Below are positions 2,145 through 42,128 of a DNA stretch of 45,496 nucleotides, one piece after another. The DNA comes from a virus: IMG/VR virus record IMGVR_UViG_3300046454_000784, positions 1-45,496 of that record. One strand, written 5' to 3'. Position 1 is the stretch's first letter. The number at the start of each line of letters is the position of its first letter. A model generated the notes under the pieces. That model was not told the origin of the DNA, searched no databases, and saw only the letters and a program-made list of their open reading frames with translations. A program made the position numbers and the translations under genes.

Positions 2145-3113
2145 TCACCCCGCGCCGGTGGAATTGTCGATGCCGAACTGCACCGGCTCGCTCTCGCGGT
2201 CGTAGCTCACGACAACCATGGCGTAGGTGTCGGCCATCTCCTTGATGCGGTCCCAGGTGGGCGCAGGGACGCCGAAGCCGGGCGCGAGCTCCTTCGAGAG
2301 GTTCCACTGCAACGGCAGCACCCACTCCTGCGGGAAGTCAGCCGTGTTCGTCGGCACGAGGAAGTCCTGCAGCGGCCTGTACCAGGTGAAGCGCATCGCC
2401 CAGCTTGAGAACTGCGGGACCGGCCAGGGGTAGAGGAGGCCCTCGTCACGCCGCGGCGAATAGAACCATTGCGTCGGCGTGCCCGGCGCGTCCTTGTCTG
2501 GCAGGTCCATGTAGCCCTGGCGCGAGAGGATCGTCATGGGCGTCTCGTTCAGGCCGTTCAGGGTGAGCAGCCGCGCGGCGGGGATCTTGAGCGGGCGCGA
2601 AATCTTGGTGGTGTAGGCCAGCGCATAGTTGCCGGCGTCGGCGCCGACCAGCAGCGCGGCGCCCAGCGCCACGACGTTGCCCACCGGCGGCGTCGGGACC
2701 GTGAACCACTCTGTCAGGCCGCTGTTGTCGACCACGCCCAGACGCATGCCGACGGCCACCAGCGCACCCTGGCCGGTCTGCAGCGTGACGTGGGTAGCGC
2801 CCAACGCGGCCGGCGCCGCCAGCGTGAGCTCGAGCCAGTCGGCCTCGTCGGAGGTCTCGGCAGTCGGCGCCGAGCCGCCGATGACGTAGCGCTTCACGCG
2901 GGGTTGCAGGAAGAGGATGGCCTCTTCTTCGGCCCAGACGTGCGAACCGGTCGCCTCGATCGTCTTGACCATGCCGTTCAGCTTGCGCAGGCCGCTCTGA
3001 TAGTCTTCCGCGGTGGGGTTCTCGTCCTCGGCGATGGAGCCGATGTTGAGGTGGGCGTCCCTGATGATGCCGAGCAGATCGGGGTTCCAATCCGCGACGC
3101 CTGAGGTACTCAT
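2145..3113 (-). CDS. Head-to-tail connector / tail accessory factor (P22 gp4-like)
   Basis: The 322-residue product has an N-terminal helical part (DYQSGLRKLNGMVKTIEA, then WAEEEAILFLQP) typical of head-completion adaptors that dock on the portal. A beta-rich insert follows (residues about 70-180). The C-terminal part (YSPRRDEGLLYPWPVP, then FTWYRPLQDF, then LQWNLSKELAPGFG) is found in podovirus tail adaptor proteins. It is about twice the length of P22 gp4, so the central beta domain is an addition. It overlaps the upstream gene by an ATGA junction and is followed at once by the gp10-like gene. The exact family is inferred. Confidence 0.65.
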   Translation of the reverse strand: MSTSGVADWNPDLLGIIRDAHLNIGSIAEDENPTAEDYQSGLRKLNGMVKTIEATGSHVWAEEEAILFLQPRVKRYVIGGSAPTAETSDEADWLELTLAAPAALGATHVTLQTGQGALVAVGMRLGVVDNSGLTEWFTVPTPPVGNVVALGAALLVGADAGNYALAYTTKISRPLKIPAARLLTLNGLNETPMTILSRQGYMDLPDKDAPGTPTQWFYSPRRDEGLLYPWPVPQFSSWAMRFTWYRPLQDFLVPTNTADFPQEWVLPLQWNLSKELAPGFGVPAPTWDRIKEMADTYAMVVVSYDRESEPVQFGIDNSTGAG

Positions 3114-3583
3114 ACCGGCTCCTGTCCCGCCGGGACGTGCGGCGTGTTGTTCGTCACCAAGTTGCCTGCGGCCGCCCGGTTGGGCAGCCCCGCCGCCAGG
3201 GTGAGCGTGCCGGCGCCAGGGGGCGCGGCCAGGTGGGTCGTGAAGTTGACGCCGGTGTCCAGCATGACGCTGACCGAGTCGCCGTTCGCGAAGCCGGCCG
3301 TCGAGGCCACGTCGAGCACAGTCTGGTGCACGGCCGCGGCGTCGGCCAACTGCACGAAAGTGGGGCCGACGAAGAAGTTGGGGGGCAGCGGGCGCGCCTT
3401 GGGCACGCTCTGGTCATCCCTGACGCCCTTGACCAGATCCTGCGGCTGGCGCGCCTCCCACACGTCGGTGCCGACGATCAGGCCGTTCCACTCCTCGCGC
3501 GTCTCCTCGGCGCGCCTGGGGAACCCGGTGCGATCGTCCTTCCGATAGAAGCTGCCGGGGACGTAGTGCAGATTGCGCCCCAA
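3110..3583 (-). CDS. Virion structural protein of the tail-adaptor cluster
   Basis: The 157-residue protein begins with a TTG codon 5 bases after a strong AGGAGG. The N-terminal half (RNLHYVPGSFYRKDDRTG, REEWNGLIVG, WEARQPQD) is an extended, polar segment recurring in podovirus head-completion regions. The C-terminal half is a small beta domain with Ala/Gly/Thr-rich strands, similar in style to the beta insert of the next gene. I do not recognise a named family. It heads the adaptor, stabilisation and tailspike gene run, so a role in head closure is likely. Upstream lies a divergent intergenic region shared with a rightward islet. Confidence 0.6.
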   Translation of the reverse strand: MGRNLHYVPGSFYRKDDRTGFPRRAEETREEWNGLIVGTDVWEARQPQDLVKGVRDDQSVPKARPLPPNFFVGPTFVQLADAAAVHQTVLDVASTAGFANGDSVSVMLDTGVNFTTHLAAPPGAGTLTLAAGLPNRAAAGNLVTNNTPHVPAGQEPV

Positions 3584-4947: not shown

Positions 4948-7404
4948 CTAGAAGGGCGCCGTGCTGACCCGGTTGACGTAGTCGAAGTAGCCACCGGTCC
5001 CGGCGTTGTAGAGGGCGGCGCCCCCGGCATTGCAGGTCGTCTGTACGGTTGGCGTGAGGTCCCCGGCCGCCTTCGGCTGGAATGCCGTCTGCACCGCCAG
5101 CACAGTCGTCAGCGTCGTGAAATCGAGAGACGTGGCCGCGTACTTGTTGGTTCCTAGGCCAACACCGATGGACTTCACGTTGCAGAGGTCAGTCGGGCTG
5201 CCACCCGTCCAGACGGAGAAGTTGCCTGCGACGGCGTTATAAGCCGACAGGCCATTGAAATTGGCGCTGCCGGAATACTTGCTGATGATTGAGGCCGAAC
5301 TGGATGCCGCGACCCCTTGCTGGTTCAGGTTCTTAATCCCGGAGACCGGGTCCTGAACTAGGGTGTTGAAGGCCACCACGGCTGTGCTATCGCAACTCGC
5401 CAAGGTGATCCCGTTGGCGAATGTGCCGACGTAGATGTTGCCCTCGAAAAGACAGCCGGTCATGATATTCGGATTGCCGACTGTCAGCGCGATAGGGCCG
5501 ATCACCTGGGAATGGTTCACTGTGGCCGAGGCGTTCGTACCGTTCCACTGACTGATGCCGCCCGTTATCACGGTCCCGGCCGTCACCCCCAAACCCGTGA
5601 TTGTATTGTTGACGGCCAAGACGCCGGGGTTCGCGGTAAAGGTAACAGTGGTGGCGCTTATCGAGCCATTGGCCACGCCTCCGTTCACCGGATTCGACAT
5701 GAACCAGCCCTGTGAGTCTGCCCAAGCCCCGTCAGGTGTCGTCGTCGTCAAGCCAGTGGCCCGAACGCAGATATTTCCGATGCGCTCGCCAAACTGGTAG
5801 GTCACGCCAGCGCCAAGAGTCGAATAGAGATCAATCTCGCAGTCGGGATGCCAATACCCCGAGGCGTATTTGATATTCTTGGTGAAATTCCAGTCCGCAT
5901 AGACCGGGCCAGCTGCGGTCGTCTGGATTCCTGCGATCCAAGGGCGCTCGAAAGTATTGCCGATGATCCAGAAATCTGTCGCGCTGTTGTCGGAGGCGGT
6001 CAGGTTGCCGGTCAGGTTCACCCCATCGAACATATCGGTGAAGATGTTGTCGTGGATGTAGAGTTCCTTGTTCGGCCCCAGGGCGCTGATGCCGGAAACC
6101 AGATCCATGCCATTCAGGTGCGGCGTCGCCGTGGGAGTGCTGCCTGTGCAATCGCTGGTGACGGTCGCGGTCGTAGCTGGTGTGCCCTGAAGACTGTAGC
6201 CGCTGCCATTCGTGCTCTGCCCCCAGCCGGTGATGACTCCGGGATTGCCGGCCCCGACGTGCTGGTCAATCGTTGCGGTTGCGGTCGCGCCAAAGCCGTT
6301 GTTCGGTCCCGCGCCGTTGTCATGGTAGGCGACAGTCGCCGTCGTGCAGCCCGTGGACCCGACCCCCACGCTGGTCGTGTAGATGCCCTGCTGACCCCGC
6401 TGACCGACGACGCCGGAATTGCTCTGGAAGGTTGAGGACGCAACCTCGACAAAGCTCTGCGCAACCGATCCACCAGGCCCGATGGTCAGGATCGAATCGC
6501 TGGTGGCGAAGCCATTGGTCCCGTTGAAGTCGCGCTGGTGGTTCAAATTCAGGAACTTGAAGCCCTGAACGGTCTGCGTCGCGCCGCTGAGCCGGATATG
6601 TCGAATGGTGGCGCAGCCCGGAGACTCGTCGGTGATGGTGATCTTGTCGGCGTCAGGGAGCGTGAAAATCGTATAGCCGCCATTGGCGTAGGCGTTCGTC
6701 ATGGCCGAATCCAGGGGCCGCGTGACCCGGAGGTCCCCCGGCGTGACAACACCTGTTGCTGCGTTGGCGCTTGTGACTCGATCCCAGACCGGAGGGTCGA
6801 TGATGGCCCCGCAGCGCAGGTAAACACTATCGCCCATGACCGGGCCGCCGCTCGCTGGGGTCTTTTCAAGAACTAGTCTGAATTGCGTCACCATAGTTCC
6901 GCAGGCGCTGCCCGCGGTGCAACTCGCTGTATCCACGTTGGAGCCGTCACCTGGATCGATGTTCGTCACGTCGAAGCGGTTGGGCACCGCCACCACGTTG
7001 AGGTTGCCGGTGGCGCCGAAGGTGTCAGTGATGACGTAGGTAGCGGTGGTGACGGCCAGGGTCGGCGTTCCGCCGTAAGTCCCGTTCGGGACCACGCAGT
7101 TATGGCTGTCGATCTTCAGGCGCGTGTCGGTGCTGATCTTCCCGGGAACGGCCTGGGAGAACACCAAGGAAGAGGCGTGCGTGCCTGTGTAGGTGATGTT
7201 GAGGAAGGGAACCGAGCCGCCGGAATTGCTGCTGTTACAACCGCCATAGCCTGCGAAGGTCTTCGTGCCGATGTTCAGCGTCTGGTTGGCTGGCAACGCG
7301 GATGCCGGCGGAATGAAGCCCAGCCGCAATCGGCCGGCGCCTGTCGCGTAAGCCTCCGTGCTGAGCGCGAAGACCGCGAACAAGGCCAGCAGAAGGCGCT
7401 TCAT
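4948..7404 (-). CDS. Large secreted-type beta-helix protein with Sec signal peptide
   Basis: I place the start at the ATG whose product begins MKRLLLALFAVFALSTEAYA, a clear Sec signal peptide with an AxA-type cleavage site. This gives 818 residues, and the ATG overlaps the stop of the upstream gene (ATGA). The rest is Gly/Thr/Asn-rich and repetitive, with beta-helix-like stretches (ATIRHIRLSG, TVQGFKFLNLNHQRDFNG, NKELYIHDNIFTDMFDGV, DFWIIGNTFERPW) and many Cys pairs. Base composition is visibly poorer in GC than the capsid genes, which suggests recent acquisition. Virion proteins rarely carry signal peptides, so this may be an exported surface or glycan-active protein rather than a particle component. 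Confidence 0.7.
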   Translation of the reverse strand: MKRLLLALFAVFALSTEAYATGAGRLRLGFIPPASALPANQTLNIGTKTFAGYGGCNSSNSGGSVPFLNITYTGTHASSLVFSQAVPGKISTDTRLKIDSHNCVVPNGTYGGTPTLAVTTATYVITDTFGATGNLNVVAVPNRFDVTNIDPGDGSNVDTASCTAGSACGTMVTQFRLVLEKTPASGGPVMGDSVYLRCGAIIDPPVWDRVTSANAATGVVTPGDLRVTRPLDSAMTNAYANGGYTIFTLPDADKITITDESPGCATIRHIRLSGATQTVQGFKFLNLNHQRDFNGTNGFATSDSILTIGPGGSVAQSFVEVASSTFQSNSGVVGQRGQQGIYTTSVGVGSTGCTTATVAYHDNGAGPNNGFGATATATIDQHVGAGNPGVITGWGQSTNGSGYSLQGTPATTATVTSDCTGSTPTATPHLNGMDLVSGISALGPNKELYIHDNIFTDMFDGVNLTGNLTASDNSATDFWIIGNTFERPWIAGIQTTAAGPVYADWNFTKNIKYASGYWHPDCEIDLYSTLGAGVTYQFGERIGNICVRATGLTTTTPDGAWADSQGWFMSNPVNGGVANGSISATTVTFTANPGVLAVNNTITGLGVTAGTVITGGISQWNGTNASATVNHSQVIGPIALTVGNPNIMTGCLFEGNIYVGTFANGITLASCDSTAVVAFNTLVQDPVSGIKNLNQQGVAASSSASIISKYSGSANFNGLSAYNAVAGNFSVWTGGSPTDLCNVKSIGVGLGTNKYAATSLDFTTLTTVLAVQTAFQPKAAGDLTPTVQTTCNAGGAALYNAGTGGYFDYVNRVSTAPF

Positions 7405-8171
7405 GGGCCCACTCCGAGCAAGGTTCCCTTGGGAGCGGCAGAGGAAGCCGCGGCAGGTTTGAACGACCACACCTGAGCGCCGACAATGCGGTTCGTGGCC
7501 CAGGTCGGCGCGTAGCCCACGGAGGTCGTCGCCGAGCAGTTCGTCACGCAATGGGCGATGCGGACGTTGTGGTTGGCGCCTGGGGTCGGGAAGTTGTCGG
7601 AGGTGAAATTGGCGTCCTCTACCCAGGTTCCATAGGTGGCGGTGGTGTTCCAGACGCCGATGACGATCTCGTTGGTGACGCTGAGCGGGCCCGTCGTCAG
7701 GGGGGAGCCGGTCCCGGTAATGCTGGTCTGCGTGGTCACGCTGTCATAGCCGCCGCCGGTCTTATCGAGCGGCGTGGTGGCAAGCAGCCCGGTCACGCAG
7801 ATGGCGGCGGCGGCAGGCGTGCTGTTGGTCGTCCAGTTGATCTGCAAGCTGGAGCTGGGGCTGACGTCGGTCGTCACCTTGGCCGAGATAAGGACGAGCT
7901 TCTGGTTGGTGGTGTACGTCGTATTCAGGGCGGCATAGGTGTTGCTATGCCCGTCGCTGACGGTCCAGGCCGAGCTGTTGCCGACCGCCAGCGCCACGAA
8001 GACGTAGCTTCCGACCGGGCAATCGTTTGCTCCGGTGGTGATCGTGATCGTGGCGACGGAGGAAGCGCTGATAGCTACGCCGAGGTCAGCGACAGTGATC
8101 GCCGCTGCGACCGGCGCGACGGTCAGCGCCCAGGCCGCCAGCCCGATGAGAAGGGATCGCAAGAACTTCAT
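7401..8171 (-). CDS. Secreted protein of unknown function (Sec signal peptide)
   Basis: The 256-residue product begins MKFLRSLLIGLAAWALTVAP, then VAAA, a standard Sec signal peptide. The mature part is a Thr/Ser/Val-rich beta protein (VGSYVFVALAVG, QKLVLISAKVTT, EIVIGVWNTTATYGTW) resembling the jelly-roll-like domains found with phage tail or lectin proteins. Two Cys lie close together (HCVTNCS). It is coupled to the genes on both sides (3-base gap upstream, ATGA downstream). No named family is recognised. It belongs to a run of three consecutive genes with signal peptides. Confidence 0.6.
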   Translation of the reverse strand: MKFLRSLLIGLAAWALTVAPVAAAITVADLGVAISASSVATITITTGANDCPVGSYVFVALAVGNSSAWTVSDGHSNTYAALNTTYTTNQKLVLISAKVTTDVSPSSSLQINWTTNSTPAAAAICVTGLLATTPLDKTGGGYDSVTTQTSITGTGSPLTTGPLSVTNEIVIGVWNTTATYGTWVEDANFTSDNFPTPGANHNVRIAHCVTNCSATTSVGYAPTWATNRIVGAQVWSFKPAAASSAAPKGTLLGVGP

Positions 8172-8174
8172 GGA

Positions 8175-8951
8175 CTAGAACTGCGCGTAGGAGAGCGAGC
8201 CCGCTGTGTCCACCGCGCCCGTGGTGATGATGCACACGGCCTCGCTGGCGGCGGTGACGAGGATAGGGCCCAGGCCGCTGCCGGCGCTGATGCCGCCATT
8301 GGCGGCGAAAGACGCCGTGTGGCCCGATGCGCCGGTCAGGTAGTGCGTGCCGCCGCCGCAGGTTGCACCCGTGCCGGCGATCAGGGCCACCGTTCCGGCG
8401 CCGGACAAAACCCAATCGTAGTGTGTGACGTAAACCTTCGTAGAGCCGGAGGCCGCGACGACGAGGGTGGTCGTGGCGCTGGTGGAGGTGATCGGCGCCG
8501 AGGCCGTCGTTTGAATAAGCCGGGTTGCGCCGGTGTTGGTGGAGAGGCCCACGACACCGGTTCCGTCGGTCGGCAACTCGACTCGCAGCGCCCCGGCCGC
8601 TGTGCCCGCGCCCGTCGCGGTATTGACACCCGCGATCTGCTTCAGGTTGACGTCGGCCTGCGTGGCCATCGCCGCTTCGATGGCGGCTAGGTGCGCTGCG
8701 TTGACAACTTGGGTCGTCTCGAGCGCAAAGGCGTTGGTGACGGTGATCGAACCCGTGAACGTAGCGCCGGTGCACAGCAGCCCGGTGGTGTCCTGGGTGA
8801 TCGCGCGCGTGTTGTTGACGCCGTAGGCGGTGTTCGGCGTGCCGCAGGACGAGACCACGTTGCCGTTCGACAGCTGCGCATGGGCCACCGCCGGCGCAAG
8901 CGCCACCAGCAGGAGGAGGGATGCCGCGAGGCGGGCCAGAATCCGGCTCAT
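8175..8951 (-). CDS. Secreted beta-rich protein (Sec signal peptide)
   Basis: The chosen ATG overlaps the stop of the upstream gene and starts MSRILARLAASLLLLVALAP, then AVAHA, a Sec signal peptide. A longer in-frame extension upstream has no coding appearance. The 258-residue product has a mid-part with two VNxAHLAAIEAAMATQADVN-like helical segments and a C-terminal beta domain (TKVYVTHYDWVLSGAGTVAL, GTHYLTGASGHTASFAANGG). That C-terminal pattern is common in small phage structural domains. A single Cys pair may form a disulphide. The signal peptide is at odds with a simple virion role. Confidence 0.65.
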   Translation of the reverse strand: MSRILARLAASLLLLVALAPAVAHAQLSNGNVVSSCGTPNTAYGVNNTRAITQDTTGLLCTGATFTGSITVTNAFALETTQVVNAAHLAAIEAAMATQADVNLKQIAGVNTATGAGTAAGALRVELPTDGTGVVGLSTNTGATRLIQTTASAPITSTSATTTLVVAASGSTKVYVTHYDWVLSGAGTVALIAGTGATCGGGTHYLTGASGHTASFAANGGISAGSGLGPILVTAASEAVCIITTGAVDTAGSLSYAQF

Positions 8952-9376
8952 GACTGCTTGATGTCCTTCCGAAGCCGAAGAATGAAGCTCAGCGTGGCGT
9001 CCGGCATGGGGCTGATCGTGCTGAGCAGGATCGAGCCCGTCGCGCCGGCCAGGCCGGTCGGGACCGGGATGCCGCCCATCTTGTGCCACGCGAAGTCGGT
9101 GGGCGACGCGCCGTAGGCCAAGATCAGCGAGTTGGCCGACGCCTCCCAATCCAGTCGGAACTTCTGGTCCTGCACGTCGAAGTCGATGCCGATGATCTTC
9201 GTGTGCAGCCCGGGATAGAACACCTGGCCGCCGATCGTGACGCCGTAGACCCCGGTTGAGGTGGCGTCGAAGATCTTCTGGTTCGTGATCCCGGAGCCGT
9301 CGGAGACGAGCCCCACATTGAGCACGACGTTGCGGAAGCCGTTCTCGATGATCTGGACTGAGGCGACGTCGGCCAT
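8948..9376 (-). CDS. Conserved small virion protein
   Basis: The 142-residue protein has the pattern ENGFRNVVLNVGLVSDGSG, then ATSTGVYGVTIGGQ, then KIIGIDFDVQDQKFRLDWEA. This pattern recurs in small structural proteins encoded near the capsid genes of many uncultured tailed phages. I know of no assigned function for them; a decoration or tail-associated role is possible. It contains no signal peptide or membrane segment. The stop overlaps the start of the secreted protein that follows. The family is recognised by pattern only. Confidence 0.6.
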   Translation of the reverse strand: MADVASVQIIENGFRNVVLNVGLVSDGSGITNQKIFDATSTGVYGVTIGGQVFYPGLHTKIIGIDFDVQDQKFRLDWEASANSLILAYGASPTDFAWHKMGGIPVPTGLAGATGSILLSTISPMPDATLSFILRLRKDIKQS

Positions 9377-9421: not shown

Positions 9422-10345
9422 CTAGACCTGGGCGACCCCGAAGAGCCCGATGGTGGGATCGGCTTGCACGGCGGTCAGGGACGGCCAGCAGCGGATCACC
9501 AGCCGCTTCGTGCCATCCGCGGCGTCCTGCACTGCGTAGGTGCCGCGAACGTCACCGGTGGTGTTCGTGGCGGGCGTAGTGGCGTCGGGGACGACGAAGC
9601 CGGTGTTGGCGGTGATGAGCGCGTCGTTCCAGTGGATCAGGCTGTCACTGAAGAGCAGCGTCTTGATCGGCAGGCCGAAGATGTCGAGCGTTCCGACGCT
9701 GTAGTTGTGGGCGTCGCTGAACTGCGGCACGACGGAGGTGACGAACTTCCACGCCTTCTTGCCCGCGGTCGTCGCGATGCCAGCCGCGGCGGTGATCTTC
9801 TCCGTCATCGGGTAGCCGAAGGTGTCGTAGCCCGAGATGATGAAGTCGCCGCCAGCGCCGCCCGACACGCCCGTGATGGACAGCGCTCGCGCTCCGAGGC
9901 TCGCGCGATCGTAGAAGGTGGTGAAGCCCTTGTTGCCGAACTTCTTGAGCGCCGGGTTGCCGTCGATCACGAGCGCGGCGGCGGGGACGACATTCAGGCT
10001 GGGCATGACGAGCAGGCCGCCGGTCGGGACAACGGTGATCCCGGTCGAGGCGGCCGCCAGCGTCATCGCCACACCGCTCGAGGCGTTGGCCAGCGCCACG
10101 ATCTTCGCGGTGCCTTTGGTGGCGGGAATGAAGCTGAGCGCCAAGCTGTCGGCCCCGTAGAAGCCCACGACGCCCGCGCCGGTGTCGGACTGTGCGGTGT
10201 TGTAGGGCAGGCGGTGGTCCTGGATGCCGGCGCCGAGGTAGTCGACGCTGGGCCCGGCCAGGGCCGGGAGACCAAGCGAGCCGGGCGGCATGCGGGCGAG
10301 GACGCGATGGACAGGCGCCCAGAATGCTGAAGGTGTACCGGCCAT
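9422..10345 (-). CDS. Virion structural protein downstream of the capsid gene
   Basis: The 307-residue protein is Ala/Gly/Thr/Val-rich with alternating hydrophobic strands (GTAKIVALANASSGVAMTLA, FIISGYDTFGYPMTEKIT, TLDIFGLPIKTLLFSD). It has no signal peptide, helix-rich region or catalytic motif that I can see. The sequence has the look of the beta-sandwich proteins that follow capsid genes in podoviruses. It is the first gene after the major capsid protein, separated by about 90 bases that include a short GC-rich hairpin. No named family is recognised. Confidence 0.55.
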   Translation of the reverse strand: MAGTPSAFWAPVHRVLARMPPGSLGLPALAGPSVDYLGAGIQDHRLPYNTAQSDTGAGVVGFYGADSLALSFIPATKGTAKIVALANASSGVAMTLAAASTGITVVPTGGLLVMPSLNVVPAAALVIDGNPALKKFGNKGFTTFYDRASLGARALSITGVSGGAGGDFIISGYDTFGYPMTEKITAAAGIATTAGKKAWKFVTSVVPQFSDAHNYSVGTLDIFGLPIKTLLFSDSLIHWNDALITANTGFVVPDATTPATNTTGDVRGTYAVQDAADGTKRLVIRCWPSLTAVQADPTIGLFGVAQV

Positions 10346-10434: not shown

Positions 10435-11355
10435 CTAGACGCCTGGCGTGCCGAACCAGCCGCGCCAGTCCGTCCAACCGGCGCTGAAGCGCATGTATTG
10501 GGCGGCCTTGGCGTTCTTGGTGTCGAACTCGTTGTCGGTGTCGAACATCGGCTTGTCGCGCCACAGGAAGCGCGTGCCGTAGGGCGCGTTGGTCCGAATG
10601 AACCAGGCGGTGGCCGAGGTGAAGTAGTGGTTCACCACGATGCCCTTGGGGAACATGCCCGACGCCTTGATGACGTTGATGGCGTTGTTCGCCGTGTCGT
10701 TCTGCAGCACCGAGTTGATGATGCGGTTGGCGTCGAAATACTGCGAGGGCGAGATGGCCAGGCACTGCGGCGTCAGGCTGATCTTGTTGCCGCGGTAGTC
10801 GGTGGCCTGCATGATCTGGATGCCGAGGTCCTCGATCGAGGTCTCCGACAGGTCCGCCGAGGTCGCCAGCAGGTTCGACTGGTTGCCCACCAGCGAGGGG
10901 TGGGTCGAGGCGATCATGCACTGGCCGTCGCCGCCGGTGAAGGTGCCGTTGTACGCCTGGTTGAACACCCCGGCCGACACGATCTCTTCCGTCTGCCGGC
11001 CCGCGAAGGCCAGCATGGCGGAGCGGCGCTTGGAGACCACCTCATAGAGGTCGTCGCGCAGCTCCTCGAAGGTGACGATGTAGCCGCCCGCGTACGCCAC
11101 GTGAGTGTAGCGGGTGACGGAGCCTTGCACCTCGGCGTCGTAGTTGAGTGCGCCGCCCTGGTCCTTCTCGCGAAGGATGCCGAACCCGGAGATTTCGACG
11201 TCTTCCTCATACGCCTTGTCGGACGTCTCGACGTCGAACAGCATCGGGTACTCTTGGTCGTGCTCGGCGTACTGCCGGCCCCACCAGGTCTTGATCCCGG
11301 GCCAAAGGGCTTTCGGGTGTGCACCGGTGGTGATAACGCCGCCAACCGTGGCCAT
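10435..11355 (-). CDS. Major capsid protein (HK97-fold type)
   Basis: The 306-residue protein has the order of elements seen in HK97-fold capsid proteins: an N-arm (IKTWWGRQYAEHDQEYPMLF) followed by an E-loop region (EEDVEISGFGILREKDQGGA). After these come the spine-helix region (VTFEELRDDLYEVVSKRRSA, then MLAFAGRQTEEIVSAGVFNQ) and the A-domain (QCLAISPSQYFDANRIINSV). It lies after the scaffold and before the tail genes, as expected. GGAG lies 9 bases before the ATG. The mature shell should consist mainly of this protein, and the GroES-like protein upstream may help fold it. Confidence 0.85.
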   Translation of the reverse strand: MATVGGVITTGAHPKALWPGIKTWWGRQYAEHDQEYPMLFDVETSDKAYEEDVEISGFGILREKDQGGALNYDAEVQGSVTRYTHVAYAGGYIVTFEELRDDLYEVVSKRRSAMLAFAGRQTEEIVSAGVFNQAYNGTFTGGDGQCMIASTHPSLVGNQSNLLATSADLSETSIEDLGIQIMQATDYRGNKISLTPQCLAISPSQYFDANRIINSVLQNDTANNAINVIKASGMFPKGIVVNHYFTSATAWFIRTNAPYGTRFLWRDKPMFDTDNEFDTKNAKAAQYMRFSAGWTDWRGWFGTPGV

Positions 11356-13881: not shown

Positions 13882-14361
13882 CTATTCGACGCGGTGAACG
13901 ATGGCGGCGCTGGCCGCGGCCTCGGCGTCGAGGTAGCCGCCGGCCAGGCAGTTGTAATCCATGAACCGGTAGAAGCCGCCGTCCATGCCCATCGCCACGA
14001 CGCCGCTGTACTGCGCCACGTAGACGCGCTCGCCGGCCAGGGGCTTGTCGCCCTGCCAGGGACGGCCGTTGTCGAAGTAGTGGAACGCCTCGGGGCCCAC
14101 CGCGTAGATGCAGCCGGTGACGCTCATGGCGTCCATGCGCTCCTTGCGGTCGTCGGTAATCATCACGCTGCCCACGGTCTGCGAGCACTCGTCCATGCGC
14201 ACGAGGATGTTGCGCCCATAGGGGCGAAGGCCGGAGGTGTTCTCGCCCGACCAGGGGGCCGGGATGTAGTCGGCCTGGGCGCCTCGGATCGTGCTGACGA
14301 TCTCGGCCGCCGCTGAGCCTGTGACGACGGCTGCCTTAGCGCCGCCAACCGCACTTCCCAT
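13882..14361 (-). CDS. GroES-like co-chaperonin
   Basis: The 159-residue protein contains a Cpn10/GroES fold at about residues 46-140. NILVRMDE matches the first strand of GroES. QTVGSVMITDDRKERMDAMS occupies the mobile-loop position and is followed by VTGCIYAVGP, then GERVYVAQYSG and FYRFMDYNCLAG. These correspond to the GroES strands GxVxAVGPG, GDxVLFxxYxG and YLIxxExDILA. It sits between portal and scaffold genes. By analogy with T4 gp31, it may replace host GroES so that the capsid protein folds in the host GroEL chamber. The N-terminal 45 residues are an extension. Assignment is by motif order. Confidence 0.7.
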   Translation of the reverse strand: MGSAVGGAKAAVVTGSAAAEIVSTIRGAQADYIPAPWSGENTSGLRPYGRNILVRMDECSQTVGSVMITDDRKERMDAMSVTGCIYAVGPEAFHYFDNGRPWQGDKPLAGERVYVAQYSGVVAMGMDGGFYRFMDYNCLAGGYLDAEAAASAAIVHRVE

Positions 14362-30327: not shown

Positions 30328-30410
30328 CCCTCCGCGATGAGGCCCCGGCCCCAGAAGCTTCGGTGTGTCTCAAGATGAACCAAAACCCTTCTGAACAGGT
30401 AAAGCCATGA
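30324..30410 (+). CDS. 28-residue frame
   Basis: The short frame starts MTLRDEAPAPEASVC and ends NPSEQVKP. ATGA junctions at both ends give it the same coupling as its neighbours. The sequence has no recognisable features. It may be a coupling frame for the lipoprotein gene that follows. Confidence 0.35.
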   Translation: MTLRDEAPAPEASVCLKMNQNPSEQVKP

Positions 30411-30778
30411 CCCCCTCACCGCGCATTGCCCTCTTGGCCCTGGCGTTCGCACTCTCGGCCTGCGAACGCACCTTCACCTATACGACCGTTCAGGCCCCTG
30501 TGCCGAATGGCGTGTTCGAGATGCCACCCGGCGTCACGATCACCAATGTCCGGGTGAGCGATGACGGGTATGCCACAAGAATATCTGGGCTCCTGACGGC
30601 GGAAACGGACGGCACGTTCCATGTCCAATGCGGGGCTTACAAGGACGGGCAGCAGGTGGCCGCTCCGTCTGGCTGGGCGTCTGACACGGCGAGCGGCATT
30701 CCCGCGAAGTTCGACACGATTGATCTTTCGAGCCACGGCACGCCGGACCATTTCCGATGCAAGGTGACGGACCAATGA
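30407..30778 (+). CDS. Predicted lipoprotein
   Basis: The 123-residue protein begins MTPSPRIALLALAFALSACE, with a lipobox LSAC at about residues 16-19. The mature protein would be anchored by Cys19 to the outer or inner membrane. The rest is a beta-rich domain of about 100 residues (GVTITNVRVSDDGYATRISG, then TFHVQCGAYKDGQQV) with two further Cys. Phage lipoproteins of this size often block superinfection at the cell surface. An outer-membrane spanin is less likely because the protein is large and not Pro-rich. Confidence 0.65.
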   Translation: MTPSPRIALLALAFALSACERTFTYTTVQAPVPNGVFEMPPGVTITNVRVSDDGYATRISGLLTAETDGTFHVQCGAYKDGQQVAAPSGWASDTASGIPAKFDTIDLSSHGTPDHFRCKVTDQ

Positions 30779-31275
30779 CCCCGCCCACAAAGACAGAAGA
30801 TGAGGGACTGGTGGAGAGGGGCGCTCGGGCTATCTGCGCCTGCGATGAGCAGGATGGCGCGGGTCCGTGGGACTACCATACCCCCAAGTACCAAGAGGGC
30901 TACCGAGAACGCGCCCGTGCGGCCCAGGCTGAACTCGCCGCCCGCATCACCTCCCTTGAGGGGGAGTTGGAAGAAGCGAGGAAGCTCGCCGAGACGCAAC
31001 GCGATGCCTTCCGAGCCGAGGACCGAAAGCTTTGGTTCGCGCTTGGTGATGATGTCCGTGGAAACGCGGCTTACGTCCTCGATGGCGTGCGCTGGATGGT
31101 CAACGACCGCGCCGAGCAGCGCCAACGCGCCCAAGCCGCCGAGTCCACCCTCTCCACCTTCAAACAGCGGGCGAGCGCGGAGGAGATGGCGAGGGTGATC
31201 AACGGTGGCCGGTGGTCAACCACTAGAGACCTTGCATCCGCCCTCCACGCCAAGCTCTTTCCTTCGGAGAAGTGA
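30775..31275 (+). CDS. Coiled-coil protein of unknown function
   Basis: The 166-residue protein starts at the ATG overlapping the lipoprotein stop. The centre is a long coiled coil ([20 protein letters not shown], then [20 protein letters not shown]), and a second helical part follows ([20 protein letters not shown]). The beginning has an [14 protein letters not shown] segment. No membrane segment is seen. Many phages carry such proteins in accessory operons; the role is unknown. Confidence 0.55.
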
Positions 31276-31581
31276 AATGACGGATATCAGCAAGGCTCTC
31301 GCGCTCGAACTCGCTGAGACCTGGGAAACTCAGGCCGAAATGGAGCCAGACGGCACCTTCGAGCGGCGCGCAGCACTCAGGGAGTGCGCCGACACCCTCC
31401 GCATGCTGGCTAACCGGGATGAGCGCCCCGACTGCCCCCACAACCCGCCGATGCGGTTCTGCGAGTACCGGCCGGACCATGTGAAGGTCTGTCCTGTCGG
31501 CCTGCCCTGCATGACGTTCGCGGAAGCGCAGGCCCACCGCGCGAATAGGAACCGCTCGTGACCCGCTTTCCTTCGGAGAAG
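31257..31581 (+). repeat. Two copies of CTTTCCTTCGGAGAAG at gene starts
   Basis: The 16-base sequence CTTTCCTTCGGAGAAG occurs exactly at 31257-31272 and 31566-31581, each directly before an ATG. It contains GGAGA as Shine-Dalgarno and a C(TTCG)G tetraloop that could fold with one mismatch, covering part of the SD. This suggests that a start cassette was duplicated with its gene. Confidence 0.55.
31277..31561 (+). CDS. Small Cys-containing protein
   Basis: The 94-residue protein starts [20 protein letters not shown]. It has a helical N-terminal half ([20 protein letters not shown]) and a Cys-rich half ([20 protein letters not shown], then CPVGLPC). Four of the Cys with His could bind a metal. 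GGAGAAG precedes the ATG. No family is recognised. Confidence 0.55.
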
Positions 31582-31585
31582 AACA

Positions 31586-31792
31586 ATGGATAGCCCATCC
31601 CGGGACCTGAAGCAGGCGGTCGGAGGTGTCGCGCTAACCCAGGTCACATGCGATGCCTGCGGTGGTGACGGCGGCTTCGATGAAGAGGTCCGCGATCCCG
31701 GCGCGCTCTATGGCTGCTCAAGCCGCCACTACGAATGCAGCGCCTGCAACGGCGACGGCTGGATCGTGGTGGAACAAGAGTCGCTGGGATGA
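31586..31792 (+). CDS. Small protein with two DnaJ-type zinc-finger motifs
   Basis: The 68-residue protein contains CDACGGDGGF near residue 22 and CSACNGDGWI near residue 51, each of the CxxCxGxG form found in the DnaJ zinc-finger domain. Together they can hold one zinc. There is no J-domain here; a separate J-domain protein is encoded at 44.7-45.4 kb. Proteins of this form may bind unfolded substrates or nucleic acids. It may have arisen by duplication of a start cassette shared with the previous gene. Confidence 0.65.
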   Translation: MDSPSRDLKQAVGGVALTQVTCDACGGDGGFDEEVRDPGALYGCSSRHYECSACNGDGWIVVEQESLG

Positions 31793-32052
31793 CCGACCGC
31801 GCTTACCTCAAGGGCCTGCGGCCAGACGGAACATACAAGCGTTGCGCCTTTCCATGCCAGCGCCGAGCGGGCGTGGAGTGTTCTGTGCCCATCGCACCGG
31901 GGCCGGGCATTGATTTCGTCTGGACCCTCGCTGGCGGAACACCCGATGCGCCGACCATCACGCCGTCGATCAACTGTGAGAACGATACCTGCTGGCACGG
32001 CCACGTCACCAACGGCGAAGTTCTGAACCCCGCGCCAAGAGCCCGAACATGA
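31789..32052 (+). CDS. DUF6527-like protein (short form)
   Basis: The 87-residue protein contains IDFVWTLAGGTPDAPTITPS, then INCENDTCWHGHVTNGEV. This matches the W-x-x-x-G-x-x-x-x-P-T-x-x-P-S-I and C-H-x-x-V-x-x-G pattern of the small DUF6527 family of phage proteins. The usual C-terminal part with further Cys/His (D-C-x-H) is absent, so this is a shortened version. Function is unknown. ATGA coupling at both ends. Confidence 0.6.
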   Translation: MTDRAYLKGLRPDGTYKRCAFPCQRRAGVECSVPIAPGPGIDFVWTLAGGTPDAPTITPSINCENDTCWHGHVTNGEVLNPAPRART

Positions 32053-32306
32053 ACCCGGAAAGCGAGATGGCGTGCGTTGATTGCCCCGGCCATGGCGGTT
32101 CGAGAGCCGAATGCTGCGAACTCGTGCCGCCCCCGAAAGCCTATCGCTCCCCATCCGGAGCCAACCCATCTGGACATTGGGTCACCACCAAGTTCGAGGA
32201 AGTGGTCTGCCAGAAGAAGCGCTGCACTTGGTGCAATCCGTGGTGCGACTGCCCGCGAAAAGAGGACACCTCTGATGGCAAAGAAATCCCGGGAGAAACC
32301 AAATGA
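32049..32306 (+). CDS. Cys-rich small protein
   Basis: The 85-residue protein (MNPESEMACVDCPGHGGSRA) holds nine Cys in several CxxC-like pairs: CVDCPGHGGSRAECCE near the start, then CQKKRCTWCNPWCDCPRKE in the second half. These could bind two metal ions. No family is recognised; the pattern is like small zinc-binding phage proteins. ATGA couplings on both sides support expression. Confidence 0.55.
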   Translation: MNPESEMACVDCPGHGGSRAECCELVPPPKAYRSPSGANPSGHWVTTKFEEVVCQKKRCTWCNPWCDCPRKEDTSDGKEIPGETK

Positions 32307-32644
32307 CTGAACCCACCAACACAACCCCGGAAGGACTGACCGAGAGACTGGAGAAGTTGGCAGACAAGCTGATCTATCTCGCATGGCCATGCCCCCTTCT
32401 CAGAGAAGCCGCCCAAGCCCTCCGCACCTCCGAGGAACAGCGGGACAGGATGCGGGGGGCGTTGATTGAGATGCTGGCGCTCTACGATACAGCCCTGATG
32501 GCGACCGAGTTCACGAAGCCTAGAACGGGCCAGATCGTCATGAACATCGAGAAGCTGAAGGTCGCAATCGAAGCCGCCCGCCAAGCCCTCTCCCAACATC
32601 AGGAGAGGCAGGACGCCGCGCACGAAAAGGGCCCAGCCGGATAG
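32303..32644 (+). CDS. Helical protein, last gene of the accessory operon
   Basis: The 113-residue protein (MTEPTNTTPEGLTERLEKLA) is helical, with likely coiled-coil segments (LREAAQALRTSEEQRDRMRG, then EKLKVAIEAARQALSQHQER). No membrane segment is evident. Its stop codon TAG lies inside the operon-end hairpin. No family is recognised. Confidence 0.5.
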   Translation: MTEPTNTTPEGLTERLEKLADKLIYLAWPCPLLREAAQALRTSEEQRDRMRGALIEMLALYDTALMATEFTKPRTGQIVMNIEKLKVAIEAARQALSQHQERQDAAHEKGPAG

Positions 32645-32652
32645 CTGGGCCC
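32629..32652. terminator. Strong hairpin between convergent operons
   Basis: GGGCCCAGC and GCTGGGCCC form a perfect 9-bp stem with a 6-base loop. Read leftward, it is followed by TTTTCG, so it terminates the leftward replication block (last gene ends at 32680). Read rightward, it has no T-run but directly ends the accessory operon, so it may serve both directions. Confidence 0.7.
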
Positions 32653-32679
32653 TCGATCATCGCCCTCTTCCGTATCTCG

Positions 32680-33432
32680 TCAGGCGTCGGGCGCTGCTGC
32701 TTCCGCGGGTGCCTGGTCTACGCCGGCGCCTTCGGTCGGAGCGGGATCTTCCGTCGGCGCGGCCTCGGGCTCGATCACAGCGGCGGCCGCCACGGAGATC
32801 GTCACAGTCGCGTTGGCCGTCAGCGGCGGTGAGGACGAGTCCGTCGCCGTCAGGCTGAACGAGGTGTCGCGCGCTTCGCCAGGCGTGCCGCTGAACGAGC
32901 CGTCCGAATTGAAGGTGATCCCGTTGTCATCCGGCGGCGAGCTCGCGTAGGTGATCGGGCTGGCGCCGCCGCTGGCGTGCACCTGGCCCGTGTAGCCCTG
33001 ACCCACCGTGGCGGCCGCCAGGTCGGGCGCATCGAACACCAGCGGATCGGGACCGACCGGAACCGGGGGCACCGGGATCGGCTGCGGCACGCCGACCTTC
33101 TGGAACACCGAGTCGACGTGCTCCTGCACCGACACGCGCGCCGAGTTGATCGCATCGGCGGCGGCGTCTTCGTCGATCCCCACGCGGGCCATAGCGGCGG
33201 CGACCGCGGCGGCGGCGACGTCGGGCGAGCCGACCAGGGCGGCGGCGATCGCCTCGAGCTCGTTGTTGGCCTGGGCGACACCGGCGTTGGCGGCGTCGAC
33301 GGCGGCTTGGAGTTTGGCGGTAAGGGCCATGATGGCTTCCTCTCGTTGCAGGATGGGCCGGAGCAGCTCGGCGAAGAGGGCGCGGATCCTGAAGTCGTCG
33401 TAGTGGTGGTGGACGTGCAGGTCCAGGCGCAT
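32680..33432 (-). CDS. Ig-like (He_PIG-type) protein
   Basis: The 250-residue protein starts MRLDLHVHHHYDDFRIRALF. It then has a helical, Ala-rich part (about residues 30-110), a Pro-rich hinge (GVPQPIPVPPVPVGPDP) and an Ig-like domain at about residues 144-214: GQGYTGQVHASGGASPITYA, then GITFNSDGSFSGTPGEARDT. The latter fits the He_PIG type (Y-x-x-x-L/x-x-x-G-x-x-x-G-T-P). The tail is Ala/Pro/Glu-rich. Such domains usually decorate virions and bind cell-surface glycans, which is unusual inside a replication block. Confidence 0.7.
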   Translation of the reverse strand: MRLDLHVHHHYDDFRIRALFAELLRPILQREEAIMALTAKLQAAVDAANAGVAQANNELEAIAAALVGSPDVAAAAVAAAMARVGIDEDAAADAINSARVSVQEHVDSVFQKVGVPQPIPVPPVPVGPDPLVFDAPDLAAATVGQGYTGQVHASGGASPITYASSPPDDNGITFNSDGSFSGTPGEARDTSFSLTATDSSSPPLTANATVTISVAAAAVIEPEAAPTEDPAPTEGAGVDQAPAEAAAPDA

Positions 33433-33512
33433 CGTCGTCTCATGGCTCGCGGTGGTGCAGTGCGTCGGGGTGGCGCGAGCGGCAAGGTGCGGCGGGTCGG
33501 CCCGGGCGTCAA
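33433..33512 (-). promoter_or_regulatory. Possible promoter of the Ig-like gene
   Basis: Read leftward, TTGACG, a 17-base spacer and a poor -10 (CACCTT) are followed by a leader containing GCACCACCGCGAG near the ATG, which resembles the ACACCAC leaders elsewhere. The match is weaker than at the six better sites. Confidence 0.3.
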
Positions 33513-33527
33513 GCCACGGTTGGATGA

Positions 33528-33818
33528 CTAGGCGGCCACCTCATCGAACGGCAGTTGCTGCTGGTCGTACTCGAACACCGCCTCGATGCAGGCGATCGCA
33601 TCGCGCAGCTCGGCGCTCTCGCGGTCGACCTGGTCGAGCAGCAAAGCTGCCGACGCCTGGCGAGCCTGGATGCGCAGGGTCGCCATGTAGTTCACCTCGC
33701 GGTGCTCGAGGCGGCGGCGATCGGCGTTGGCATCCTCGACCAGGCTGATGCGCGCTTCGCCGAGGCGCTCGAGCTCGTTGCGCAGCACGCGAATCGCAGC
33801 GTTCGGATGCAGCATCAT
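33528..33818 (-). CDS. Small helical protein of unknown function
   Basis: The 96-residue protein starts MMLHPNAAIRVLRNELERLG and consists almost wholly of a predicted coiled coil (EARISLVEDANADRRRLEHR, then ESAELRDAIACIEAVFEYDQ). It ends QQLPFDEVAA, a tail like the beta-clamp-binding motif Q-x-(L/M)-x-F (here QLPF). This is suggestive of contact with the replication clamp, but is inference. It overlaps the upstream gene by a short junction. Confidence 0.55.
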   Translation of the reverse strand: MMLHPNAAIRVLRNELERLGEARISLVEDANADRRRLEHREVNYMATLRIQARQASAALLLDQVDRESAELRDAIACIEAVFEYDQQQLPFDEVAA

Positions 33819-34588
33819 CCGCCGGCCTCCTCGCTGAACTCGAAGTCGTCGGCCGGCGGGGGTGCCTGGGGCACTGGCCGTCCGAGCAAGCGCAGCATCT
33901 GCGGCGTCAGCGCTGAGCCGGGCGCCAGCGTGCCGCCGCTGTACGGAAGTTCGGCATCTGGGATCTCGGCGCCCTTGGCGCCGCGCTGCAGGACGCGTTG
34001 GGAGCGCTCGACCGCCGGGAGGCTCTTGGACTTGAAGTCGCTCAGCAGCCCGGCGATGTCCGCGCGCCGCTGGCGGCGCCGCTCTTCATCGGCCGCGCTC
34101 GTGTCTTCGCGCGGTGGCTGCAGCATGTCGCGGCACGCGCTCAGCACCTGCCAGGCGTGGGTTGCGTCCCGCATCGCCGCGGTAGGCGTCTCCTGGGCGA
34201 TCGCGGCCAGTTGGCCCGGCTTCGGTAGGAACTCCGACTCTGGGCGCCTCGCCCAGGCCAGCATGGCACCGTGTAGCGCTGCGGCGCTGATATTCTCGCA
34301 GATCAGGGCGTAGGCGCGCCACCACGCTTCCCACTCCTGCTCGGAGCGCTGCGGCTGCGGGTAGGTCGCGAACCACGGGGTCAGGACGCCTACGATTCCC
34401 TCCACCCCGGCTGGGCGCCTTGCATCTTCGCGCAGCCTGGGCACCGCAGCGCCCAGCTGCTCCACGAGGCCGCGTTCAATCACCGCTCGGGCCGCCCCCC
34501 ATGTCGTCGCGTTCTCGCGCAACAGCGCCGCGAGCTCCAACGAGAGCACGGGCAAGGTTGTCGTGCTTGCGGGCAAATTTGTCGTCAC
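33815..34588 (-). CDS. Putative replication accessory (helicase-loader-like) protein
   Basis: The 257-residue protein starts with GTG 7 bases after AGGAGG. The middle, FATYPQPQRSEQEWEAWWRA, then YALICENISAAALHGAMLAW and RRPESEFLPKPGQLAAIAQE, has the shape of helicase-loader/replisome organiser proteins in which a helical domain precedes a short L-P-x-P-G-x-L motif. It directly follows the DUF1376 replication gene, which supports a replication role. The first 113 bases overlap the end of that gene in another frame, an unusual extent. Confidence in the function is low. Confidence 0.6.
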   Translation of the reverse strand: MTTNLPASTTTLPVLSLELAALLRENATTWGAARAVIERGLVEQLGAAVPRLREDARRPAGVEGIVGVLTPWFATYPQPQRSEQEWEAWWRAYALICENISAAALHGAMLAWARRPESEFLPKPGQLAAIAQETPTAAMRDATHAWQVLSACRDMLQPPREDTSAADEERRRQRRADIAGLLSDFKSKSLPAVERSQRVLQRGAKGAEIPDAELPYSGGTLAPGSALTPQMLRLLGRPVPQAPPPADDFEFSEEAGG

Positions 34589-35363
34589 GTCCGTGCCTCC
34601 TGGGTGTTAGGGCGCCGCTCTCGCGGCGGTTGTCCAGCGCGTCTCGAACCGCGCCGTCGAAGTAGGTCCACGACGCGATGTTGCGCTTCTGGCGCTGGCA
34701 GAGCCCCACGACCACCGGCACCACGTCCAGGCTGAACGAGGCGCCGGCGAGCTTCCACTCTGCTACGACGCGGCCGCCGGTGATGAGGCTGAGGCTCTTG
34801 CTGGTGTCGAGCTTGCCGCTGCTGAGCGCGCAGAGGTGCTTGGACCAGGCATCGATCCCACCATCAGGCCAATCATCGGGCGCGCGCGGTGGCTGGGCTT
34901 CCGAAGGAAGACCAGACACTGGTTCTAGCTCTGGCTGTAGCTGTGGCTGGCGCGCGCGCGCGAGAGGCGAAACCGGGTCTAAGGATTCCAATGGCTTATC
35001 GGAGCGGTTGGACTCCCCGGGGATTCCAAAAGTTCCCGTGCCAGGAGCCACTTTGGGACTCCTGCGGGAATCCACTGGCGGCGCGAGCACCCCCAGCGCG
35101 GCAAGGTCCTCGGTGATCCTCGAGTGGGTGATCCAGACCCCGTCGACCACGAAGTAGCGGACGATCCTGGGCCATCGCTTCGGCCAATTTTTCGGCGACG
35201 TCCCGGCGATCTTGCGCAGGTCGTCGTCCAGCGGAAGCACGCCCTTGTGACGCCAGAGCGCCATGCAGATGCGGAAGTAGGCGCCGAACTCCGCGTCGCT
35301 GAGCGTGATCGTGTCCGACACGACGTCGGGCACGAAGAGTTTCATGATCGGCAGCTTCGCCAT
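34476..35363 (-). CDS. DUF1376-domain replication protein
   Basis: The 295-residue protein starts MAKLPIMKLFVPDVVSDTIT. The first 90 residues fit DUF1376: LSDAEFGAYFRICMALWRHK, then GVLPLDDDLRKIAGTSPKNW, then VVDGVWITHSRI. Proteins of this group act in phage replication initiation, usually with a DNA-binding winged-helix region at the start. The C-terminal half is basic and disordered at first (a Pro/Gln-rich section), then DAVRDALDN-like (YFDGAVRDALDNRRESGALT). The long overlap with the next gene is noted there. The ATG lacks a Shine-Dalgarno sequence and seems to rely on coupling to the small upstream frame. Confidence 0.75.
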   Translation of the reverse strand: MAKLPIMKLFVPDVVSDTITLSDAEFGAYFRICMALWRHKGVLPLDDDLRKIAGTSPKNWPKRWPRIVRYFVVDGVWITHSRITEDLAALGVLAPPVDSRRSPKVAPGTGTFGIPGESNRSDKPLESLDPVSPLARARQPQLQPELEPVSGLPSEAQPPRAPDDWPDGGIDAWSKHLCALSSGKLDTSKSLSLITGGRVVAEWKLAGASFSLDVVPVVVGLCQRQKRNIASWTYFDGAVRDALDNRRESGALTPRRHGRDDKFARKHDNLARALVGARGAVARERDDMGGGPSGD

Positions 35364-35557
35364 CAGGCGCGGCGCCTGTGGACAGGAACCACCTGGACTG
35401 TTGATCGGTTGATTCGGTGCGCTATGATGCGCATGGGCATAAGCACTCCCGCCAAGGGCTTGTGTCTCGGGCGGCGGTAGGTGTTGAACGCACCACCGCC
35501 GCCACCCCCATCCTTCCTCCGCATACGCCACGTCGTCAAGGCGCCCTCTTGCGTCAC
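35363..35557 (-). CDS. Small basic upstream frame of the DUF1376 gene
   Basis: A GTG-started 64-residue frame ends in a TGATG junction with the DUF1376 gene. It is Arg- and Gly-rich (MRRKDGGGGGGAFNTYRR, then MPMRIIAHRINRSTVQVVP). No Shine-Dalgarno sequence is found for the next gene, so this frame may provide translational coupling. A shorter version from the internal ATG (MRRK) is possible. The rest of the gap up to the methyltransferase region shows nothing else. Confidence 0.4.
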   Translation of the reverse strand: MTQEGALTTWRMRRKDGGGGGGAFNTYRRPRHKPLAGVLMPMRIIAHRINRSTVQVVPVHRRRA

Positions 35558-36318
35558 GGTGGCGCGCTGCTATCCAAATCAGTAGCGCCGGGCTGGCGCG
35601 CCGGCGCAGTCTCACGCCAGCGCAGGGTCCACCCGATCGTTAGGGCGCGCCGGGTGAGATGTGGTGTACCGGCGCGTCCGACGATCCGCGGCCGGCCCAG
35701 ATGAACTCGGTCCCCGAGAACGGCTCCGCGGGAGCGAAGACCAGCCACACGAAATTCTCCACGCCACCCTCGGCCTTGCCGCCATCCAGCAGGAACTGGC
35801 CAGGCGGGCACGATGGCCTGGGGAACACCGGATAGACGCGGTGGCGGATGGTCCCTGAACAGGCCCATGGCGCGCCCGGCGCCGAAGAGGAACTTCGAAT
35901 TGACGAAGAACGCCGCCTTCTGCACGCCCGGCAGCGTCACCGCCTTCCTGATGAAAGCCTCGGCGAGCTTCGCGCGGCCGTAGGGCGCATTGCAGACGAT
36001 GTTGGGGCGGTAGGGCCCCTCGAGCGGGTGCTGCAGGAAGTCCATCGTCCCCAGGAACCACGACGGGCACGAGCCCTGGATCGGATAGCGCGGCCCCAGG
36101 TGCGCCTGGTCGTACTTGGTGAGCCGGTCGCGCAGATCGCTGCCCACCGCGTCGTGGCCGTCCAGTAGGCATGCCTCGACGATGTTCCCCTGGCCGCATG
36201 CGGGGTCCCAGATGCCCCCGGTGAAATACTCAAACGTCAGGAGGAAGTGGGTCGCGCCCGGGGGCTCGACGAACCAGTCATCCTCAACTTTCGGCCACGC
36301 CGTCCTGCCTTCCGCCAT
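35554..36318 (-). CDS. SAM-dependent DNA methyltransferase (adenine-type), frameshifted
   Basis: The gene begins MAEGRTAWPKVEDDWF with AGGAGA 8 bases before the ATG. Motif I is DPACGQGN at residues 38-45, and motif IV is NAPYG at residues 110-114. This matches N6-adenine or N4-cytosine class methyltransferases (D/N-P-P-Y, here N-A-P-Y). The frame continues to 254 residues, but from about residue 158 the sequence no longer looks like a methyltransferase; the family's usual continuation lies in another frame. As written the enzyme is probably truncated. It would modify phage DNA against host restriction. Confidence 0.75.
   Translation of the reverse strand: MAEGRTAWPKVEDDWFVEPPGATHFLLTFEYFTGGIWDPACGQGNIVEACLLDGHDAVGSDLRDRLTKYDQAHLGPRYPIQGSCPSWFLGTMDFLQHPLEGPYRPNIVCNAPYGRAKLAEAFIRKAVTLPGVQKAAFFVNSKFLFGAGRAMGLFRDHPPPRLSGVPQAIVPAWPVPAGWRQGRGWRGEFRVAGLRSRGAVLGDRVHLGRPRIVGRAGTPHLTRRALTIGWTLRWRETAPARQPGATDLDSSAPP
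35640..35846 (-). pseudogene. Displaced 3' part of the methyltransferase gene
   Basis: In a different leftward frame the product runs HRVYPVFPRPSCPPGQFLLD, then GGVENFVWLVFAPAEPF, and ends HHISPGAP. RV-Y-x-x-x-x-R-P-S-x-P-P-G and the WxVF end are the normal C-terminal features of this methyltransferase family. A change of one base near 35840-35850 would join the two parts into one gene of about 225 codons. Assembly error, a real mutation and programmed frameshifting are all possible. Confidence 0.6.
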
Positions 36319-36544
36319 CGCGCTTCTCCTGCGGCCAAAACCATTGCTTCTCAGGGTTCCACCGCTTCTGCACCACGTCGAACGTCTTGCAGCCGTGCAC
36401 GAGCTCGTTCGTCGCGCGCCAGGGGATCGGACCGGCCCAGCAGTAGCCCACGCGGTAGCCGCCGGCCCGGTGGCTCTCGTTCTCCGGGATCAGGGCCAGG
36501 TTGCAGCAACGGCCGCACGGCTTGGTTTTCTTGGATCTCAACAC
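36284..36544 (-). CDS. Small Cys-containing protein of unknown function
   Basis: The 86-residue protein starts with GTG (LRSKKTKPCGRCCNL after the first residue). The CGRCC motif, with a later Cys pair (GYCWAGPIP, then GCKTF), could bind a metal. It ends with a Trp-rich section (KRWNPEKQWFWPQEKRDG) and overlaps the methyltransferase start by 35 bases. No family is recognised. Confidence 0.5.
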   Translation of the reverse strand: MLRSKKTKPCGRCCNLALIPENESHRAGGYRVGYCWAGPIPWRATNELVHGCKTFDVVQKRWNPEKQWFWPQEKRDGGRQDGVAES

Positions 36545-36560
36545 CCGGGTGGTGCTCCGG

Positions 36561-38529: not shown

Positions 38530-38555
38530 GTCGGCCTCCTGGGTTTCGGCGGGAA

Positions 38556-38596
38556 TCGGTGTGTTGCCAGCCTACCTTGACGCCGCGGCGCGTCAA
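38556..38596 (-). promoter_or_regulatory. Leftward promoter interleaved with the rightward one
   Basis: Read leftward, TTGACG, a 16-base spacer and TAGGCT are followed after 6 bases by ACACCGA, then the AGGAGG and GTG of the coiled-coil gene. The rightward -35 box lies inside its spacer, so polymerase could not occupy both at once. It is the same module as elsewhere, with a slightly different initiation element. Confidence 0.5.
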
Positions 38597-38618: not shown

Positions 38619-38629
38619 GGGAGACAACG

Positions 38630-41162: not shown

Positions 41163-41177
41163 GCGAGAGACGATCCG

Positions 41178-42119: not shown

Positions 42120-42128
42120 GAGAAGACC

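Follow-up and report, generated by a model that had tools for sequence, protein, structure and literature searches.

Sec signal peptides on candidate fibre-type modules encoded in the virion gene block of a phage

Virion proteins of tailed phages are assumed to be made and assembled wholly in the cytoplasm, where disulfides are disfavoured. The three proteins considered here, SP1, SP2, and SP3, are encoded in a virion operon, as tail fibres and tailspikes are, and begin with predicted Sec signal peptides. Relatives of this locus encode further proteins of this kind (hereafter tagged proteins), which have in common with ordinary tail fibres and tailspikes their gene position, S74 domains, a fibre N-terminal motif, and repeats. 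Ordinary tail fibres, however, lack a signal peptide, and tagged proteins contain more cysteine than they do, in even numbers.

Judged by architecture only, the nearest analogue appears to be the mosaic adhesive trimer (MAT) family of Bdellovibrio, a set of secreted, phage-fibre-like proteins in which a conserved domain follows the signal peptide and S74 or other domains form the tips (PMC10769870). The tagged phage proteins likewise combine a signal peptide, a conserved N-terminal domain, and a variable fibre or tip, but MATs are encoded by chromosomal genes of a predatory bacterium while the tagged genes here belong to phage virion operons. The SAR endolysin provides an example of a phage protein that uses the host Sec system (PMC3765740). 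SAR endolysins, Rz1, and superinfection-exclusion lipoproteins all share with SP1-SP3 the use of host Sec, which for SP1-SP3 is a prediction, but SP1-SP3 have no lysozyme domain or lipobox, and their genes lie among virion genes instead of lysis genes; searches of Pfam and PHROG returned no lysis match or muralytic domain for them. A last likeness is to small jelly-roll virion or cement proteins of phages and to C1q/TNF-like tips, to which the C-terminal domain of SP1 is similar in fold searches, with PDB Z scores below 8 that indicate only a common arrangement and a model of moderate confidence. No account of Sec signals on phage fibre proteins was found among open-licence papers. Each part is of a known kind; what is new is their occurrence together in a virion operon.

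A signal-peptide cassette within the late gene block

The window, by which we mean the whole 45,496-nucleotide stretch analysed here, is the IMG/VR record of a soil phage and encodes a terminase, a portal, and a capsid protein. Its right end (31083-45496) is the start of a near-identical contig of 68,884 bases (L124), and the overlap between window and contig is 126 bases. The genome is therefore about 68.8 kb, with both ends covered by the window and this contig together. Several other genes of this phage were recorded in passing: a 4,274-amino-acid open reading frame downstream of the ejection-protein genes (L125:3-12824), a gene resembling acyl carrier protein by sequence (L124:14281-14547, in the window from about 45363 to the end), and a 123-amino-acid lipoprotein candidate with lipobox LSAC (30407-30778, plus strand).

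The late block runs leftward on the minus strand in the order portal, GroES-like gene, scaffold-region genes, major capsid protein (10435-11355; Pfam Phage_capsid_4, E = 7e-11), g307 (9422-10345), g142 (8948-9376), a cassette, g157 (3110-3583), a gp4-like gene in the head-tail adaptor position (2145-3113; PHROG 12985, of unknown function), and a gp10-like head closure protein, Hc3 (723-2141; PHROG 578, E = 8e-98). Comparison with relatives identified g307 and g157 as conserved genes, the latter on the far side of the cassette, and there too the conserved 142-amino-acid gene g142, directly upstream of SP1, marks one cassette edge. The GroES-like gene of the head module (13882-14361) has an NCBIfam match below cut-off, and GenBank relatives have an annotated co-chaperonin at its position.

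Three signal-peptide genes and one untagged gene make up the cassette, again on the minus strand. SP1 (8175-8951, 258 amino acids) has a predicted signal peptide at residues 1-25 (MSRILARLAASLLLLVALAPAVAHA, cleaved before Q), SP2 (7401-8171, 256 amino acids) at residues 1-24 (MKFLRSLLIGLAAWALTVAPVAAA, cleaved before I), and SP3 (4948-7404, 818 amino acids) at residues 1-20 (MKRLLLALFAVFALSTEAYA, cleaved before T); the mature parts of SP2 and SP3 contain 4 and 14 cysteines, respectively. The ATG of SP1 at 8951 overlaps the stop of g142 (ATGA), SP2 starts at 8171, 3 bases past the SP1 stop at 8175, and the SP3 start at 7404 overlaps the SP2 stop at 7401 (ATGA). No promoter-like site was seen on the cassette strand. 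The first-pass annotation had described three coupled Sec signal-peptide genes lying between capsid-associated genes and tailspike genes, and the overlaps, the 3-base gap, and our rule-based scores confirm the coupled genes, just as the capsid gene upstream and the beta-helix and gp10-like head closure genes downstream confirm their neighbourhood. It had also taken SP3 for a large beta-helix protein. This did not hold, as SP3 has no sequence match in Pfam, PHROG, NCBIfam, or PDB, and its single-sequence AlphaFold model has a pLDDT of 31.5, too low to assign a fold. A clear beta-helix protein is encoded by the gene that follows, the last of the cassette (4939-4061, 292 amino acids, Pfam E = 8e-13), and this protein has no signal peptide.

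Signal peptides were called with a home-made, rule-based n/h/c test. SP1, SP2, and SP3 scored 43.9, 36.9, and 43.7, within the range of ten known Escherichia coli signal peptides (34.2-43.8) or just above it, and all three have a positive n-region, a hydrophobic core, and an A-x-A cleavage site. None of the other genes in the virion cluster passes the test. Among the 98 genes called in the near-identical 68.9-kb genome, the only other hits of at least 30 were a lipobox Rz1-like protein, a lipobox lipoprotein, and a 101-amino-acid membrane-type protein, which leaves SP1-SP3 as the only strong signal peptides without a lipobox; no cysteine occupies the lipobox position in any of the three.

SP1 is laid out as a signal peptide, a conserved mature N-terminal domain with a cysteine pair (VVSSCGTP..TQDTTGLLC), a variable middle, and a C-terminal domain (about residues 146-258) that models as a jelly-roll-like sandwich resembling small phage virion proteins in a fold search. 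The C-terminal domain is the only usable part of the AlphaFold model, at moderate confidence, and PDB fold matches (all Z below 8) were not used as homology. Against Pfam, PHROG, NCBIfam, and PADLOC nothing above chance was found for SP1-SP3, Pfam and PHROG gave no recognisable fibre domain in the three proteins themselves, and no relatives of SP1 or SP3 emerged from a tblastn search of 50,697 phage records. Any fibre identity of SP1-SP3, which have no family match of their own, would come from the relatives at the same place.

Tagged proteins in related phages

With the capsid gene as query we collected 80 loci from phages and 25 from bacterial genomes. The bacterial sources include Gluconacetobacter, Zavarzinia, Phenylobacterium, and a Sphingomonas MAG contig, which indicates alphaproteobacterial hosts; the host of this phage is probably a Gram-negative alphaproteobacterium. 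The backbone capsid, g307, g142, g157, gp4-like, gp10 is conserved across relatives. In distant relatives g142 and g157 adjoin each other. Members of the closer clade have a cassette of about 0.5-7 kb, either between g142 and g157 or between g157 and the gp4-like gene. Of about 20 distinct contigs from relatives, at least 15 have signal-peptide genes between g142 and gp10, at the start of the cassette or within it. Such genes are missing from the cassette of four relatives (L023, L030, L031, and L198), and in L035 they lie in the tail-fibre region instead (L212). Since L023, L030, and L031 are close relatives, the tagged genes appear dispensable. Protein searches covering the Gluconacetobacter family (200 genomes) and its class (289 genomes) added few copies, and the g142 proteins, when all were aligned, varied too much for the collection to be scanned with them. 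Homologous HNH-type genes also occur in cassettes of relatives (L026:16492, L023:14956, and L030:5565), in L030 as the sole insert, and such genes may help cassette exchange.

Tagged proteins have two types of conserved mature N-terminus, class I (QTNYLGTVFIAD) and class II (SSCGTPP..TQD..G.LC), the latter being that of SP1. Both start right where cleavage is predicted and are joined to differing C-terminal parts. Identity is 80% in the mature N-terminus of class I versus 47% in its signal peptide, and 45% versus 12% in class II, and in most class I pairs the changes after the cleavage site are mostly synonymous. Class II proteins of L019 and L036 have a lipobox-like LVGC or LAAC within the signal peptide, in addition to a conserved A-x-A site followed by Q. 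Even within one near-clonal group, L006 has a replaced second half of SP1 (69% identity) and the otherwise near-identical contig L002 a replaced beta-helix gene (66% identity), with neighbouring genes in both cases 99-100% identical. Such N-terminal conservation with C-terminal swapping would be typical of docked adhesive appendages.

Sequence features of the tagged proteins at the cassette position in relatives point to fibre-type proteins. A C-terminal Peptidase_S74 domain is present above the Pfam cut-off in tagged proteins of L043 (E = 3.6e-11) and L026 (E = 1.5e-7). In L092, the signal peptide is followed by the tail-fibre motif ISRLPAAAALNGSELVPCVQNGVTVKCTASQV with two added cysteines and then by a long beta-rich region, while the untagged counterpart MPALPISQLPTSAALTGVELLPAVQDG in L133 begins at the N-terminus with no signal peptide. 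Phage fibre repeats occur in L027, a tagged protein of L212 matches a PHROG named "pectin lyase activity", and an untagged fibre-type protein directly precedes the tagged modules in both L212 and the Gluconacetobacter locus L095. This genome also encodes apparently complete tail fibres of 598 and 639 amino acids without signal peptides, therefore the tagged proteins cannot be the sole fibres, and we dropped the idea that the cassette is the site of the only receptor-binding proteins.

The cysteine content of the mature proteins sets them further apart from controls. Even cysteine numbers are known to be preferred in exported proteins (PMC7678975). All 27 cysteine-containing tagged clusters have an even mature count (binomial p = 7e-9; 32 of 34 individual members), versus 51 of 110 untagged control proteins from the same loci (Fisher p = 2.3e-8). 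Median cysteine content is 1.72% in tagged proteins and 0.36% in fibre-like controls. Since this pattern was seen before it was tested, a replication plan was then written down in advance. The new loci of the capsid clade alone gave 5 of 7 even (p = 0.23, a small sample), and adding newly found tagged proteins of L206, L212, L213, and L220 gave 15 of 19 (p about 0.01), a replication in the same direction that is smaller and weaker.

A search of IMG/VR with the class II domain returned 11 loci, and in all of them (7 checked afresh together with the earlier ones) a signal peptide stands directly before the domain. In L220, a GP7-type capsid gene (Pfam E = 5e-131) is followed by four Sec-type and one Tat-like signal-peptide genes, and in L213 a Baseplate_J gene (E = 9e-37) and an endolysin precede the tagged modules. 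From these contexts, the tagged design would span at least three unrelated virion gene sets. In L220 it is the fifth consecutive tagged gene (7148-7867) whose signal is Tat-like (TRRNALLGLLAAPAIIRPAKAQ), and tagged proteins may thus leave the cytoplasm by more than one route.

Probable export, proposed docking at lysis, and competing explanations

Their recurrence, the onset of conservation at the cleavage site, and a cysteine parity absent in controls support export of the tagged proteins, and the even counts argue for real export and disulfides. We consider it very probable that the tagged proteins are exported and their signal peptides cleaved, and export with oxidative folding is the best-supported step of the mechanism proposed below, held with equally high confidence. 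An alternative is that the hydrophobic N-termini are not export signals and stay uncleaved, anchoring the proteins in the virion or the inner membrane. Fibre proteins are normally cytoplasmic and our calls come from a home-made rule, both of which would suit such anchors. The segments, however, diverge fast yet keep their n/h/c character and A-x-A site, the strong conservation begins only where cleavage is predicted, and the even number and enrichment of cysteines are hard to explain without an oxidising compartment, and we regard anchoring as unlikely. Recurrence, conservation from the cleavage site onward, and cysteine parity likewise support the export idea of the first-pass annotation. Its further step, that virion proteins should not be exported and that these genes therefore form a separate secreted system, is countered by tagged proteins of relatives with S74 domains, the fibre N-terminal motif, and fibre repeats, and by the untagged fibre-type protein found directly before tagged modules in two contexts.

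We suggest that SP1-SP3 are accessory modules of fibre or tip type whose genes are expressed late, as the virion genes are. Each protein would cross the inner membrane of the Gram-negative host by means of a cleavable Sec signal peptide, and in the periplasm signal peptidase I would cut them and oxidation would yield disulfide-bonded proteins, while particles are built in the cytoplasm. At lysis, particles and periplasmic modules would meet, and the conserved mature N-terminal domain would dock on the particle, adding swappable adhesive tips. Docking at lysis is favoured because of the position in the virion block, the fibre features, the N-terminal conservation, and the untagged-then-tagged gene order; attachment to the virion itself is inferred from gene position and N-terminal conservation. 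We hold this reading tentatively, at somewhat under an even chance, a grading that covers the whole statement including virion attachment. The more general proposition, that several unrelated phage lineages split virion maturation over two compartments, with Sec-exported, Dsb-folded fibre modules docking at lysis, is offered with slightly more reserve.

A non-virion role is nearly as likely as docking because the phage has other, complete tail fibres that are untagged. The proteins would then be exported and never join the virion, acting in the host envelope or the surrounding medium and serving to mask receptors against superinfection or loss of progeny to debris, or to bind surface polymers. 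Phage proteins located in the envelope that block receptors are known, such as Llp of T5. Signal peptides and cysteine parity fit this possibility equally well, and the lipobox-like motifs of L019 and L036 would suit it, but the window proteins have no lipobox, their genes lie inside the head-to-connector block, and the S74 and fibre N-terminal motifs, together with untagged fibre-type proteins directly before tagged modules (L212 and L095), speak for appendages; we place this role well below an even chance. The first-pass annotation had suggested that the three genes could form a secreted system, glycan-active or surface-shielding, that is delivered during infection. For a version with glycan-active enzymes, the beta-helix gene following SP3 and the "pectin lyase activity" match in L212 could be cited. 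This version appears quite improbable, as no enzyme family, including that PHROG, matches any of SP1-SP3, tagged proteins elsewhere are of fibre or jelly-roll type, and the beta-helix protein of the window lacks a signal peptide. Capture from the host as independently expressed morons (lysogenic-conversion genes) is more improbable still. Envelope and secreted proteins are common among morons, and the HNH-type genes of relatives show that the cassette accepts insertions, but SP1-SP3 are coupled within a late operon whose strand shows no promoter-like site there, and the domains of their relatives are of phage fibre type and not host enzymes.

If Sec-tagged, even-cysteine fibre-type proteins are what these features suggest, they would break the cytoplasm-only rule for tailed-phage virion proteins, either as parts that complete the particle at lysis or as fibres secreted to serve as weapons or shields. 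Secreted fibre adhesins, the MATs of Bdellovibrio among them, may also have originated from such proteins. Many "hypothetical" genes beside capsid genes would become testable, and cultured Gluconacetobacter strains with tagged prophage fibres would offer a tractable system in which to do so.
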